Source: a virus. Taken from it: 34,307 nucleotides of DNA. The position numbers and the translations under genes were made by a program. The notes below the pieces were generated by a model. It ran no database searches, was not told where the DNA came from, and worked only from the letters and a program-made list of their open reading frames with translations. The stretch lies in the IMG/VR virus record IMGVR_UViG_3300027743_000063, positions 1 to 34,307 of that record. One strand, written 5' to 3'. Shown one piece after another: positions 38 through 13,243 of this stretch. The first letter of the stretch is position 1; each line of letters starts with the position of its first letter.

Positions 38-646
38 TTACCGGCGGCGCTCCAGCACGACCGCGATGTACTGCACCCGGGCCGGCGTCAGGCCGCGCGC
101 CCGCCACCGCCGGATCACCGTGCCGCCCATCCGCTCCACCACGCCGTTCAGCGCCCGGGCGATCAGCTCGTCGTAGCCCTCGGCGCTCAGGATGGGCGTC
201 TTGAACTTCAGGCCCGCCGCCCGACGCAGCGCGTGGGGAATGAGCCCGGTGCGCGTCTTGAGCCAGGTCCCTTCGGTGAACACGATCCCGACGACCTCGC
301 CCGGCTGCATCGGCCGGCGCGCGCCGAGGATCGCCATCTGGTCCCACGGGGCCCCGTAGGCGTCGAAGTCGAAGCAGTTGAACGCGGTCAGGTCGATGGC
401 GCGCATGACGCGCTGGTTGTCGGCGACGTAGCACGTCCGCGCGTCCTGGTGCCACCGCGCGTCGCACCCGACGTAGCGGCTGGCCTCGTGCCAGATGGCG
501 TCGTAGAGCAGCCCGGTCCCGGCGAAGGCATCGAACACGCGCGTCTGGTCGGGCCCGAGGGCGTCGAGCACGTGGCGGCGCAGTTGCACCTTGGCTTTCT
601 TCGCCCCCTTGGCGTTGTCGATCTTCGGGATTGGGAGCGGGCTCAT
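38..646 (-). CDS. Class I SAM-dependent methyltransferase-fold protein (202 aa)
   Basis: The N-terminal third carries a glycine-rich SAM-binding motif (DAFAGTG, about residues 39-45), followed by an acidic end of strand 2 (YVGCD, about 58-62), typical of a Rossmann-fold methyltransferase. A later motif, CFDFDAYGAPW (about residues 91-101), sits where DNA methyltransferases have their catalytic NPPY/DPPY loop. It resembles the D-x-D-x-[YF]-G-x-P type seen in some RNA methyltransferases, so the substrate is uncertain. The ATG overlaps the stop of the upstream gene (ATGA at 643-646), so the two are translationally coupled. It lies in the packaging block with the terminase genes, the HNH nuclease and a ParB-like protein. 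Modification of phage or host nucleic acid is a reasonable inference. Confidence 0.65.
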   Translation of the reverse strand: MSPLPIPKIDNAKGAKKAKVQLRRHVLDALGPDQTRVFDAFAGTGLLYDAIWHEASRYVGCDARWHQDARTCYVADNQRVMRAIDLTAFNCFDFDAYGAPWDQMAILGARRPMQPGEVVGIVFTEGTWLKTRTGLIPHALRRAAGLKFKTPILSAEGYDELIARALNGVVERMGGTVIRRWRARGLTPARVQYIAVVLERRR

Positions 647-10798: not shown

Positions 10799-10853
10799 AG
10801 AGATGGAATATCATCAAAAGGATACAGGTGCATCGTGGGCAGCTATGCTGCGG
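10799..10853 (+). repeat. Duplicated early-region element, copy B
   Basis: Second copy of the element at 10429-10483. Here the GTG start of the next gene (10835) lies within the element, at a position that is GTA in copy A. Upstream flanks are also loosely alike (GATTT-CGCCT in both), which suggests that the duplicated segment was originally longer, perhaps 80 bp. Confidence 0.75.
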
Positions 10854-11209
10854 AAGTGCGACGACTTCCACCCACACGACTACAAGAGCTTCGCGGCCAG
10901 GCCCTCCGGTACTTCCGCGAAGAACGCGATCTCACGCAAGCCCACGTCGCGCGATTGGCGAACGTGGGCGTTGCAACTATCGGCCGACTGGAGACGCGCG
11001 GCCCCCGCGACCCACGCCTGTACGCCCGGGTGTGCCGCGTGATGATGGTGACGCCCCAGGAGATCGATCAATGGCTCGCGGCGCGCGTGATTGACCCGCG
11101 CCTCTGGCCGTTGATCTGGTGGTTTGAGAGTCAGGCGCCGCTGGTGCAAGAGGTCATCGGCGACTTGTTGCGGCAGTTGCCGCATGACGGATACGGCAAA
11201 GGGAGGTGA
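10835..11209 (+). CDS. XRE-like helix-turn-helix regulator before the integrase (124 aa)
   Basis: The segment LRGQALRYFREERDLTQAHV, then ARLANVGVATIGRLETRG (about residues 19-57) is a typical XRE helix-turn-helix. The rest is helical and lacks recognisable domains (VTPQEIDQWLAARVIDPRLW). The start is a GTG within copy B of the repeat; another GTG at 10856 is possible, since neither has a strong ribosome site. It ends 3 bp before the integrase start and so is probably its co-transcribed regulator, or a recombination directionality factor. The protein's own promoter would overlap its start, which suggests autoregulation. Confidence 0.7.
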   Translation: MGSYAAEVRRLPPTRLQELRGQALRYFREERDLTQAHVARLANVGVATIGRLETRGPRDPRLYARVCRVMMVTPQEIDQWLAARVIDPRLWPLIWWFESQAPLVQEVIGDLLRQLPHDGYGKGR

Positions 11210-11212
11210 CGA

Positions 11213-12712
11213 TTGCGTGATTTGTTGAAGCGCTGTGATTGTCCACCAGCGAAATGGTCGAAGTGTCGGCACGGCTTTCACGTGCGCAAGCAGGTGGGCG
11301 GGCACCGGCCGAAAATCTCCATCGACGAACTCGTGGGTCACGAGCGCATCCGGCTGGTGAGCCAGGCCGAAGCGGTGCGCGATGCGGTGGTCGCGGCGCT
11401 GCGCGAGCGGCCCACCGGCGCGGCGCTGATGCCCTACCTGCGGGCGCATCCGGCCATCGTCGCGTTCCGCACGGCGGATGACCCCACGCGCGTGGTCCCG
11501 GCGGTCGCCCTGTCGGCCGCCGGCACAACGCCGCTGGCCGACGTGGGCAAGGCCTACGTGAGCGCACTGGAGGCCGACCCGAACCGCCGGCCCAAGTACC
11601 GCGCGAACGTGCGCTCGATGGTGGCGGTGCTGAGCGCGTGGCCGATCGTCACGACACACGCCGGCTTGCCGGTCGCCACGCCGCTGGGCACGGTGCCGGT
11701 CGGGTGCGTCACTGACGATCTGCTGGAGGGGTTTCTCCTGAGCCGCGCCACCCTGTCGGTGAGCCAGCGCAACAAGGATCTCGACTTCCTGCGACGGCTC
11801 GGGCGCTGGGCCAAGCGCAAGCTCTATCGCCCCGAGGCCTGGCTGGTGCCGGGCGACGACGGGCCGACGCGCAAGAAGGAAACCAAACGCCGCCGGCGGC
11901 TGCATCCCGGCGAGGGGGACGCCTTGCTGGCCGTGGCGGGGCCGCTGCTGCGCGCGTGCATCATCGCGGGCGTGGAACTCGGCGCGCGGCTCGGGGAGCT
12001 GCTGCGCATCATCTGGGCGGATGTCGATCTGCCGCACGCGAAAGTGTGGGTGACGGATCTGAAAGACCCGACGCGGCGGCGGTCCCTCCCGCTGTCGACG
12101 CGCATGCTGGCGGTCCTCGAGATGCGCCGCACCGCGCCCGACGGCGAGGCCCACCCCCTCGACGCGGCCGTCTTCGGCAACGAGATCGGCGAGCGCGTGG
12201 AGTCGGTCTACACGGCGTGGGTCAACGCGGTGCTCAAGGCGCACGGCTTCCCGGTCCTGCGCGACAAGAAAACGCACGCGCTGCTGCCCGAGTCCCAAGC
12301 GGCCTACGCGGCCATCGATCTGGTGTTCTCGGATCTGCGCCACGAGGCGACCAGCGGGTGGCTCGATACCGCGGTGCCCATGCACACCGTCCGCGACTGG
12401 CTGGGGCACCAGTCCTTTGCGATGCTGGCGACCTACGGCCACACGACGCCCCAGGAATCCGAGCGCGCGATGCGGGACTTCGAGAAGGCGCAGAAGGCGG
12501 CGGCCCGGAAGGCGAAGCGCAGTGGCCCCAAAGTGGCCCCAGCGGCCCGGGCCGGTGGCCCCAGAGTGGCCCCAGCCCCGGAGGGCGCGGGAGCCCCAGC
12601 CGGCCCGGCCCACCGGGGGTCAGCGGGAAAAGTGGCCCAAAGTGGCCCCAAAGCGGCCCACAAGGCCGGTAGGAGAGGAACCCAGAAAGCAGCTAAGTCA
12701 TTGGTGCATTAG
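11213..12712 (+). CDS. int: Tyrosine recombinase (integrase), 499 aa
   Basis: Integrates and excises the phage at attP/attB. A TTG start is preceded by GGGAGG at 6-base spacing. Residues 1-35 have a Cys/His-rich start (RCDCPPAKWSKCRHGFHVRK), 105-205 form a core-binding domain and 225-425 the catalytic domain: R259 (GARLGELLRI), K284 (TDLKDPTRR), R376 in SDLRHEATSG, H399 (WLGHQ) and the nucleophile Y408 (ATYGHTT). The first His of the usual HxxR box is a Ser (S373). The last 70 residues are a Lys/Ala/Pro/Gly tail encoded by repeat DNA that looks like integrase arm sites, so the end of the gene doubles as part of attP. The half tRNA gene begins 6 bases after the stop. Confidence 0.92.
   Translation: MRDLLKRCDCPPAKWSKCRHGFHVRKQVGGHRPKISIDELVGHERIRLVSQAEAVRDAVVAALRERPTGAALMPYLRAHPAIVAFRTADDPTRVVPAVALSAAGTTPLADVGKAYVSALEADPNRRPKYRANVRSMVAVLSAWPIVTTHAGLPVATPLGTVPVGCVTDDLLEGFLLSRATLSVSQRNKDLDFLRRLGRWAKRKLYRPEAWLVPGDDGPTRKKETKRRRRLHPGEGDALLAVAGPLLRACIIAGVELGARLGELLRIIWADVDLPHAKVWVTDLKDPTRRRSLPLSTRMLAVLEMRRTAPDGEAHPLDAAVFGNEIGERVESVYTAWVNAVLKAHGFPVLRDKKTHALLPESQAAYAAIDLVFSDLRHEATSGWLDTAVPMHTVRDWLGHQSFAMLATYGHTTPQESERAMRDFEKAQKAAARKAKRSGPKVAPAARAGGPRVAPAPEGAGAPAGPAHRGSAGKVAQSGPKAAHKAGRRGTQKAAKSLVH
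12521..12573 (+). repeat. Arm-type-like AGTGGCCCC repeats, outer left cluster
   Basis: AGTGGCCCC occurs at 12521-12529, 12532-12540 (as AAAGTGGCCCC from 12530) and 12565-12573, all in the same orientation and inside the integrase reading frame. The first two are one DNA turn apart (11 bp). With the inner cluster at 12623-12659 and the right-arm clusters they fit the layout of arm-type binding sites for a tyrosine integrase. Confidence 0.6.
12623..12659 (+). repeat. Left inner arm repeat (28-bp identical copy plus one half-site)
   Basis: Bases 12623-12650 are identical to 12844-12871. The unit begins GCGGGAAA and contains two AGTGGCCC sites 10 bp apart. A further related site (AAGCGGCCC) follows at 12651-12659. 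It lies within the last codons of the integrase, about 60 bp left of the half tRNA gene. Confidence 0.7.
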
Positions 12713-12718
12713 GGACTT

Positions 12719-12763
12719 GCGCGTGTAGCTCAGTTGGATAGAGCGTCCGCCTCCTAAGCGGAA
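12719..12763 (+). other. attP: attP core: 5' half of tRNA-Arg(CCT)
   Basis: The DNA matches a tRNA-Arg from its first base: acceptor strand GCGCGTG (12719-12725), TA, D-arm GCTC/GAGC (12728-12731 with 12741-12744) around AGTTGGATA, anticodon stem TCCGC/GCGGA (12746-12750 with 12758-12762) and loop CTCCTAA with anticodon CCT. It then stops matching: no T-arm (GGTTCGAAT-like) or 3' acceptor strand follows. So this is half a tRNA gene, the expected match to a host tRNA-Arg(CCT) attB, with crossover likely in or near the anticodon stem-loop. It begins 6 bases after the integrase stop. Phages more often carry the 3' part of the tRNA. Confidence 0.85.
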
Positions 12764-12843
12764 CAACTGGCCCCAGCGTTCCCCCGAATCACCACTATTC
12801 CTAACATTTTCTCAATATGCCGCCAGCAGCATACAGGGCTCTG

Positions 12844-12871
12844 GCGGGAAAAGTGGCCCAAAGTGGCCCCA
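12844..12871 (+). repeat. Right inner arm repeat (28-bp identical copy)
   Basis: Identical over 28 bases to 12623-12650 and in the same orientation, about 80 bp right of the half tRNA gene. The two copies place matching pairs of AGTGGCCC sites on both arms of attP. Confidence 0.7.
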
Positions 12872-12893
12872 GAGGTTTTCGAGGGAGCCGTCC

Positions 12894-12918
12894 AAACTGC
12901 ACTTCCAAAATGCAGTTT
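12894..12918. promoter_or_regulatory. Inverted repeat in the right attP arm
   Basis: AAACTGCA (12894-12901) and TGCAGTTT (12911-12918) form a perfect 8-bp inverted repeat with a 9-base spacer. CACTTCC (12900-12906) and GGAAGTG (12920-12926) form an alternative one. This could be an accessory-protein (IHF- or Xis-like) site or an operator for the 12959 gene. No T-run follows. Confidence 0.4.
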
Positions 12919-12920
12919 CG

Positions 12921-12942
12921 GAAGTGGCCCCAAAGTGGCCCC
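12921..12942 (+). repeat. Arm-type-like repeats, outer right cluster
   Basis: GAAGTGGCCCC (12921-12931) and AAAGTGGCCCC (12932-12942) are exactly 11 bp apart and in the same orientation as the left-arm sites. They end 4 bases before the ribosome site of the 12959 gene. Confidence 0.65.
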
Positions 12943-12958
12943 AGCAAGGAGGACGACG

Positions 12959-13243
12959 ATGCCTGAATCCCCCACCCCGAAACCCGGCGACCCCGCGCTC
13001 GGCTTCAGCGTCATCACCTACGACGTGCCCAACCACGTGGTCGAAGTGGGCTTCGGCTACTACAAGACCACCCCGGTCTACGTCGCCTCCGTCGATGGCC
13101 GGCAGGCCTTCGGCGGCCCGCACGACATGGCGAAGTTCCTCCGCAAGTGGGCGCGCGTGTCGGACCACGCCGCGCAGTACATGATCGCGGACGCGCGGGC
13201 CCGGCTGGACCAGACGCCCGACGCTATCCCGGTCGAGGAGTAG
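12959..13243 (+). CDS. Small phage protein right of attP (94 aa)
   Basis: Preceded by a perfect AAGGAGG (12946-12952) at 6-base spacing, which fixes the ATG at 12959. The protein is soluble, with a proline-rich start (MPESPTPKPGDPALGFSVIT) and a mixed alpha/beta body (VEVGFGYYKTTPVYVASVDG, then HDMAKFLRKWARVSDHAAQY). No named family is recognised. It is the first gene on the far side of the attachment site, so in the prophage it would lie at the opposite end from the integrase. It is 2 bp upstream of the membrane protein gene at 13246 and probably co-transcribed. Confidence 0.65.
   Translation: MPESPTPKPGDPALGFSVITYDVPNHVVEVGFGYYKTTPVYVASVDGRQAFGGPHDMAKFLRKWARVSDHAAQYMIADARARLDQTPDAIPVEE

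Follow-up and report, generated by a model that had tools for sequence, protein, structure and literature searches.

Integrase gene and attachment region

The virus record IMGVR_UViG_3300027743_000063 is classed as linear and comprises 34,307 bases, and this whole stretch is referred to here as the window; no terminal repeat was found in it. The subject of the present analysis is the putative phage attachment site (attP) at the 3' end of its tyrosine integrase gene (int, protein Int), where copies of one short word, AGTGGCCC, flank half of a tRNA gene on both sides and extend into the integrase coding sequence (CDS). Two related viral contigs, L056 and L123, serve for comparison. The features of the region are the following.

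11213..12712, + strand: tyrosine integrase gene int, TTG start, 499 amino acids (aa), Pfam PF00589 and phrog_1; the putative left arm sites lie in its 3' end
11213..11452, + strand: Int N-terminal domain, the candidate for reading the arm sites; modelled with a mean predicted local confidence (pLDDT) of 82.0, weakly resembling arm-binding domains
12521..12572, + strand: outer left sites (12521, 12532, 12554 with one mismatch, 12565), inside int; no counterpart in L056
12623..12650, + strand: inner left pair (12631, 12641; 10 bp apart), inside int; 28/28 identical to L056, at equal distance from the core
12719..12761, + strand: 5' half of tRNA-Arg(CCT), putative attP core; 42/43 identical to L056, also present in L123
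12794..12817, + strand: AT-rich spot with TTCCTAA (12798-12804), candidate bending site; 25% G+C, among the lowest 0.02% of window 24-mers
12843..12873, + strand: inner right pair (12852, 12862; 10 bp apart); 30/31 identical to L056
12923..12941, + strand: outer right pair (12923, 12934; 11 bp apart), preceding the next gene; no counterpart in L056

The catalytic domain of Int is recognized by PF00589 (E 1.6e-9; 38.2 bits against a cut-off of 27.1), and the protein matches the phrog_1 integrases with E 3.1e-26. The residues R259, K284, R376, H399, and Y408 are invariant across the integrases of the window, L056, and L123, and presumably fill catalytic roles within the Arg, Lys, His/x-x-Arg, His/Trp, and Tyr set. 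The half tRNA, 43 nt in length, starts 6 bp after the end of int, and the core is thus outside the int reading frame (stop at 12712, half tRNA from 12719). As expected of a fragment, ARAGORN reports no whole tRNA, and the Rfam tRNA match over 12719-12780 reaches 27.2 bits (E 0.0021), under the gathering score of 29. The same half tRNA-Arg(CCT) is common to all three records, and its anticodon loop CTCCTAA (12751-12757) is the likely crossover region.

The repeat array

Nine exact copies of AGTGGCCC are found at 12521, 12532, 12565, 12631, 12641, 12852, 12862, 12923, and 12934, all on the + strand. Five of them lie in the int CDS and four past the half tRNA, and no further exact copy occurs outside 12521-12941 on either strand of the window. 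The chance expectation is 1.46 copies per whole window, against nine observed in 421 bp; 10,000 dinucleotide shuffles of 12521-12942 never gave more than three. Any 8-mer, low-complexity words included, reached a count of nine in 3 of 2000 shuffles, and among words with at least three different letters the top count in 10,000 shuffles was five. Members with one mismatch stand nearby on the same strand at 12541, 12554, 12652, and 12766, though one-mismatch matches over the whole window are at chance level (42 versus 40.3).

The first-pass annotation had described at least nine sites of one orientation on both sides of the half tRNA, and this is borne out, as is its perfect 28-bp repeat, which is exact between 12623-12650 and 12844-12871. 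Its pairs about one helical turn apart are likewise found, with a spacing of 10 bp at 12631/12641 and 12852/12862 and of 11 bp at 12521/12532, 12554/12565, and 12923/12934. The left copies are indeed translated into the integrase tail, where the five give SGPKVAP, GGPRVAP, and GKVAQSGPK. The outer left sites form two 33-bp units that are 79% alike. A possible helical phasing of the outer sites was set aside, as the answer shifts between 10.5 and 11 bp per turn. In the phages collection, the 34-bp right pair hit 4 records at E about 4, too weak to count as a good match, and in E. coli it hit nothing.

In all three attPs the word TTCCTAA follows the anticodon-loop CCTCCTAA at a distance of exactly 48 bp (window 12798-12804; L056 2257; L123 2054), and no spot near the core is richer in AT. 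The 24-mers beside it have 25%, 25%, and 33% G+C in the window, L056, and L123, which ranks them in the bottom 0.02%, 0.4%, and 0.08% of the sequence examined. This spot is a candidate bending site, since lambda has IHF sites between the core and the arms according to the available portion of its description (PMC4880445).

Relatives keep one pair on each side

Protein scans of viral contigs yielded only L056/L122 and L123 as relatives. The Int of L056 is 78% identical to that of the window and is accompanied by the same half tRNA. It has one AGTGGCCC pair per side, at -119/-109 and +102/+112 from CCTCCTAA, and these distances are identical to those of the window. Over a gapless alignment of 12617-12875, the inner pairs are identical at 28/28 and 30/31 positions and the half tRNA at 42/43, and three of the stretches between these conserved parts at 16/36, 15/38, and 34/62.

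The first-pass annotation had named relatives that lose the repeats and keep the integrase and attachment site as evidence against its reading, and L056 goes part of the way, as it lacks counterparts of 12521, 12532, 12565, 12923, and 12934, five of the nine sites, with the inner pairs kept. The outer sites are dispensable in L056, which retains a 78% identical Int and the half tRNA without them. Comparison of the two sequences therefore suggests that the conserved unit is one inner pair per side and not the nine-site array, and the outer pairs are most likely a lineage-specific gain.

The view that the repeats arose as neutral tandem duplications, or are a functionless assembly artefact, has some appeal for the outer sites, which include the two duplication-like 33-bp units and are absent from L056. 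For the inner pairs this explanation is refuted: they are conserved far above their flanks in L056, an independent record, and in L123 they are replaced and not lost. For the repeats overall it is hardly credible.

L123 has an Int only 42% identical to that of the window, beside the same half tRNA. Its word is ATTGGATCA, two copies per side at -141/-130 and +103/+113, and the left two are inside int. The 13.4 kb L123 locus contains four copies in all, each of them (4/4) at a comparable attP position. The left distance is 21-22 bp longer than in the window, close to two turns, to which little weight is given. Both AGTGGCCC and ATTGGATCA have A-x-TGG-x-x-C in common. As a diverged Int with the same half tRNA thus goes with another word in similar positions, the word has changed and the layout has been kept. 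This is the co-variation that the first-pass annotation had proposed to look for, with the different repeats again partly inside int.

In L123, a stand-alone copy of the Int N-terminal domain is encoded at 222-575 (+); it has 117 aa, is 66% identical over 74 aa to the domain of the neighbouring integrase, and its open reading frame overlaps the int start codon by 4 bp. The phages collection contains nothing that matches it at E <= 1. This copy might compete for the arm sites or act as an excision factor.

Beyond these relatives, the genome scan gave one distant Chloroflexi integrase (L124, 24% identical), and in the phages and plasmids collections only part of the integrase was matched, at about 24-31%. 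Among 400 genomes of Chloroflexi, the one phylum sampled, none had the integrase at E <= 1e-25 and none the half tRNA at <=2 mismatches. A separate observation concerns L127 and L141 (IMGVR_UViG_3300026534_000004), a provirus with apparently another integrase at tRNA-Arg(CCT), where one whole tRNA and one 5' half are on the record.

Selection on the DNA or on the protein tail

The copies inside int could in principle follow from a useful protein tail (SGPKVAP and the like), for example a basic DNA-binding one, with the DNA repeats as its by-product. The many A, G, P, K, and R residues of the tail, and its predicted lack of structure, would suit such a role. The reading frames argue otherwise: in 3/3 integrases the inner left pair has its two copies in different reading frames, the same is true of each left pair of the window, and the matching copies on the right are outside any int frame. 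Synonymous recoding, in which the codon usage of the window was applied to the window, L056, and L123 alike, also fails to recreate the copies. The five AGTGGCCC copies of the window tail were recovered in none of 100,000 recodings (three at most), its outer three copies in 2 and its inner two in 190 of 100,000, and the two ATTGGATCA copies of the L123 tail in 0/100,000. The tail is moreover shorter and different in L056 and L123, and its length and sequence vary among the relatives (Int of 499 versus 470 aa). The different frames and the failure of recoding together imply that selection acts on the DNA, and a useful tail as the source of the repeats is very unlikely.

The tail therefore reads, on the sequence evidence, as mostly a shadow of the DNA sites. 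The first-pass annotation had held that site selection and the tail sequence constrain each other; the half of this claim in which selection on DNA dictates the tail stands, and for the other half no sign of the protein constraining the sites was seen.

The same word beside other integrases

IMG/VR was scanned for two AGTGGCCC copies 1-4 bp apart, which gave at least 119 loci. The records were chosen through the pairs themselves, without a scrambled-word baseline, and were grouped by eye; the counts in this paragraph refer to the matches listed. With L056 excluded there are 118 loci in 115 records, and PF00589 is found at E <= 0.001 in 31 of these (batches 16/34, 3/24, 10/49, and 2/10, with two records appearing twice). 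The pair is inside the fetched integrase locus in 15 of the 31, and in 13 of the 15 it lies within about 500 bp of either end of the integrase frame or in its 5' end. Six of the 19 groups qualify, or seven with L068, in which the pair is inside the frame; 1.62 qualifying groups are expected on an estimate from record lengths only, and the probability of at least six is 0.0034. In L022 the pair lies 1.3 kb after int.

The att side was inspected in six records (L176, L199, L165, L168, L169, and L167), with tRNA fragments judged by eye; at E <= 1 Rfam lists a tRNA fragment only in L167 (24.0 bits, below the cut-off). L176 and L199 have a pair, a tRNA fragment, a single site, and a pair within the int 5' CDS, in this order. 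L165 has a tRNA 3' fragment, two pairs, and int; in L168 sites are followed by a tRNA 3' fragment and then, as far as the int start, by inverted and direct pairs; and L169 has the int end, inverted sites, a tRNA 3' fragment, and inverted sites again. In L167 (2030-2360), whose integrase is quite different, a tRNA 3' fragment is flanked by GGTCAC pairs, one in the int 3' end (GHIEGH) and one on the far side. These pairs are closest to the core; AGTGGCCC-type sites are found at a greater distance, and only on one side. Among the matches listed, AGTGGCCC thus recurs around tRNA fragments beside quite different integrases.

The buried pair is read as SGPQSGP in L176 and as KVAQVAH in L199, that is, in different frames, and two copies are reached in 5/50,000 and 11/50,000 recodings, respectively; the result is weaker for GGTCACA of L167, at 354/50,000. 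The buried pairs of L176, L199, and L167 therefore imply that burial of an arm in int is not peculiar to the phage of the window. Two integrase groups, L176-L179 with L194 (SGPQSGP), and L184, L195, and L199 (KVAQVA), have AGTGGCCC-type sites in the int 5' end and again about 200-220 bp upstream.

The gene directly upstream of int bears on another explanation.

10835..11209, + strand: helix-turn-helix (HTH) protein, Pfam HTH_31 (E 6.8e-8); a similar open reading frame precedes int in L056

This HTH protein is a possible regulator or excision factor, and the repeats might be bound mainly by such a protein (an excision factor, a repressor, or a replication initiator acting on iterons) and merely lie near the att site. 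Direct repeats about one turn apart by an AT-rich spot also fit operators or iterons. Against this stand the absence of AGTGGCCC elsewhere in the window, the fixed distances of the sites on both sides of the core, the different word in the relative with the diverged Int, and the recurrence of AGTGGCCC around tRNA fragments beside other integrases. We consider this explanation improbable, although a second protein may act on the same sites.

Probable arm-type sites of the integrase

The repeats are very probably the arm-type sites of the phage's own heterobivalent tyrosine integrase, in an attP of the lambda/L5 type, which supports the array as it was originally read. L056 keeps the inner pairs, L123 replaces the word within the same layout, selection is seen at the DNA level, and the word recurs around tRNA fragments beside other integrases. 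Binding, bending, and integration at tRNA-Arg(CCT) would follow from this reading.

Several points weigh against this reading. Only three attPs of this integrase family were found, and for the L056 tail two copies are reached in 209/100,000 recodings, a modest result when taken alone. The His position of box II is occupied by S373 in the window (codon 12329-12331) and by Ser in L056, with His in L123, and the activity of the window Int is uncertain because of this replacement. Pfam names no arm-binding domain in Int. The N-terminal 80 residues have a C-x-C...C-x-H pattern, and the top four VIA-align entries for their model comprise one AP2 domain together with three integrase arm-binding entries (Z 3.9-4.3; arm-binding entries 3.9-4.2). 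The top two in Foldseek are again integrase arm-binding entries, at E 0.86 and 1.3, and the fold search against BFVD gave nothing at E <= 0.001. Such values (Z about 4) are a weak likeness, and the model agrees weakly with an arm-binding fold, short of proof. The model of the whole Int is too poor for use (pLDDT 51.4).

In the proposed arrangement, Int bound to both arms and the core would form the intasome, and a bend near the AT-rich TTCCTAA spot would return the right pair to the core. The conserved machine would be one pair per side, each about one helical turn apart, to which the outer pairs would have been added in the window lineage. With only 6 bp between the end of int and the core, the left arm must be written inside the int 3' end, and the Lys/Pro/Gly/Ala tail would be what the left-arm DNA happens to encode. 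Integration would leave int whole, with the left pairs kept next to it beside the rebuilt tRNA (attR) and the right pairs at the other end (attL).

The tRNA-Arg rebuilt in a lysogen would begin 6 bp past the int 3' end, with no evident promoter of its own (12713-12761). No sigma-70-like promoter or terminator was seen in 12400-13100, where the sigma-70 consensus may not be that of the host. As no promoter-like site is seen there, the rebuilt tRNA may depend on transcription through int.

An inverted repeat, AAACTGCA / TGCAGTTT, is present at 12894-12918 between both right pairs. Further on, AAGGAGG followed by ATG at 12959 (12946-12961) suggests the start of the next gene, whose ribosome-binding site would directly follow the outer right pair.

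Comparison with known systems

The arm word of lambda differs from that of the window, and no counterpart of a host bending factor or of Xis was identified in the window, which is a further difference. The likeness to the lambda attP, as given in the available text, is in the bivalent Int, the arm sites on both sides, and the bending sites between the arms and the core (PMC4880445).

The attP of cluster J mycobacteriophages (Omega, BAKA), in the accessible part of its description, is also 3' of int with its core in a tRNA gene, and pairs of 10-bp direct repeats (P1/P2 and P3/P4) flank the core (PMC3706429). Unlike cluster J, the window has an int that ends 6 bp before the half tRNA, a left pair inside int, another word, and the 5' and not the 3' part of the tRNA (PMC3706429). 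Likewise, related integrases with the same core and differing arm words and Int N-termini are described for cluster K mycobacteriophages and the Oenococcus IntF/IntB phages, but the portions of these reports at hand describe no arm inside int (PMC3203893; PMC8074189). Published work already includes, as far as these texts extend, direct arm sites in pairs on either side of a tRNA core, and differing arm words among integrases that share a core (PMC3706429; PMC3203893; PMC8074189).

In the Mx8 and SSV integrases attP DNA also overlaps the integrase coding sequence, as summarized in the available sections (PMC6070905; PMC4383910). There the integrase extends across attP, and integration of Mx8 gives int a new 3' end, whereas the window core is outside and int would stay whole (PMC6070905; PMC4383910). 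The Mx8/SSV type, with its core within the int frame, was accordingly rejected for the window, where int stops at 12712 and the half tRNA begins at 12719. Islands with a 5' tRNA fragment, catalogued by Islander, resemble the window in an attP with the 5' part of the tRNA and an anticodon-centred core; they are a minority type in the excerpted counts (159 islands versus 3760 with a 3' fragment; PMC4383910). The literature search turned up neither an int that contains arm sites while its core lies outside nor any use of AGTGGCCC as an arm word, which is a weak negative as few subscription papers were covered.

Implications for phage integration

A wider reading, possible but doubtful at present, is that AGTGGCCC pairs are an arm word common to six or more integrase lineages of differing sequence, target tRNA, and host base composition, with an arm repeatedly buried in int (the 3' end here, the 5' end in two other groups). 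A polymerase finishing the int mRNA, and in the lysogen of this phage probably also transcribing the rebuilt tRNA-Arg, would cross the arm, and production of Int would thereby oppose intasome assembly as a built-in brake; the stand-alone arm-binding domain of L123 would be a second brake that competes for the same sites.

The int gene of the window is a natural test case of dual coding, in which synonymous recoding can separate the site from the protein. The three attPs, in which the arm word is exchanged and the geometry kept, are suited to mapping which N-terminal residues read which bases. The finding also suggests a cheap search of metagenomes for attPs and integrase specificities, which would look next to int for a tRNA fragment bracketed by short paired repeats, spaced by about one helical turn, even where these fall within the coding sequence.
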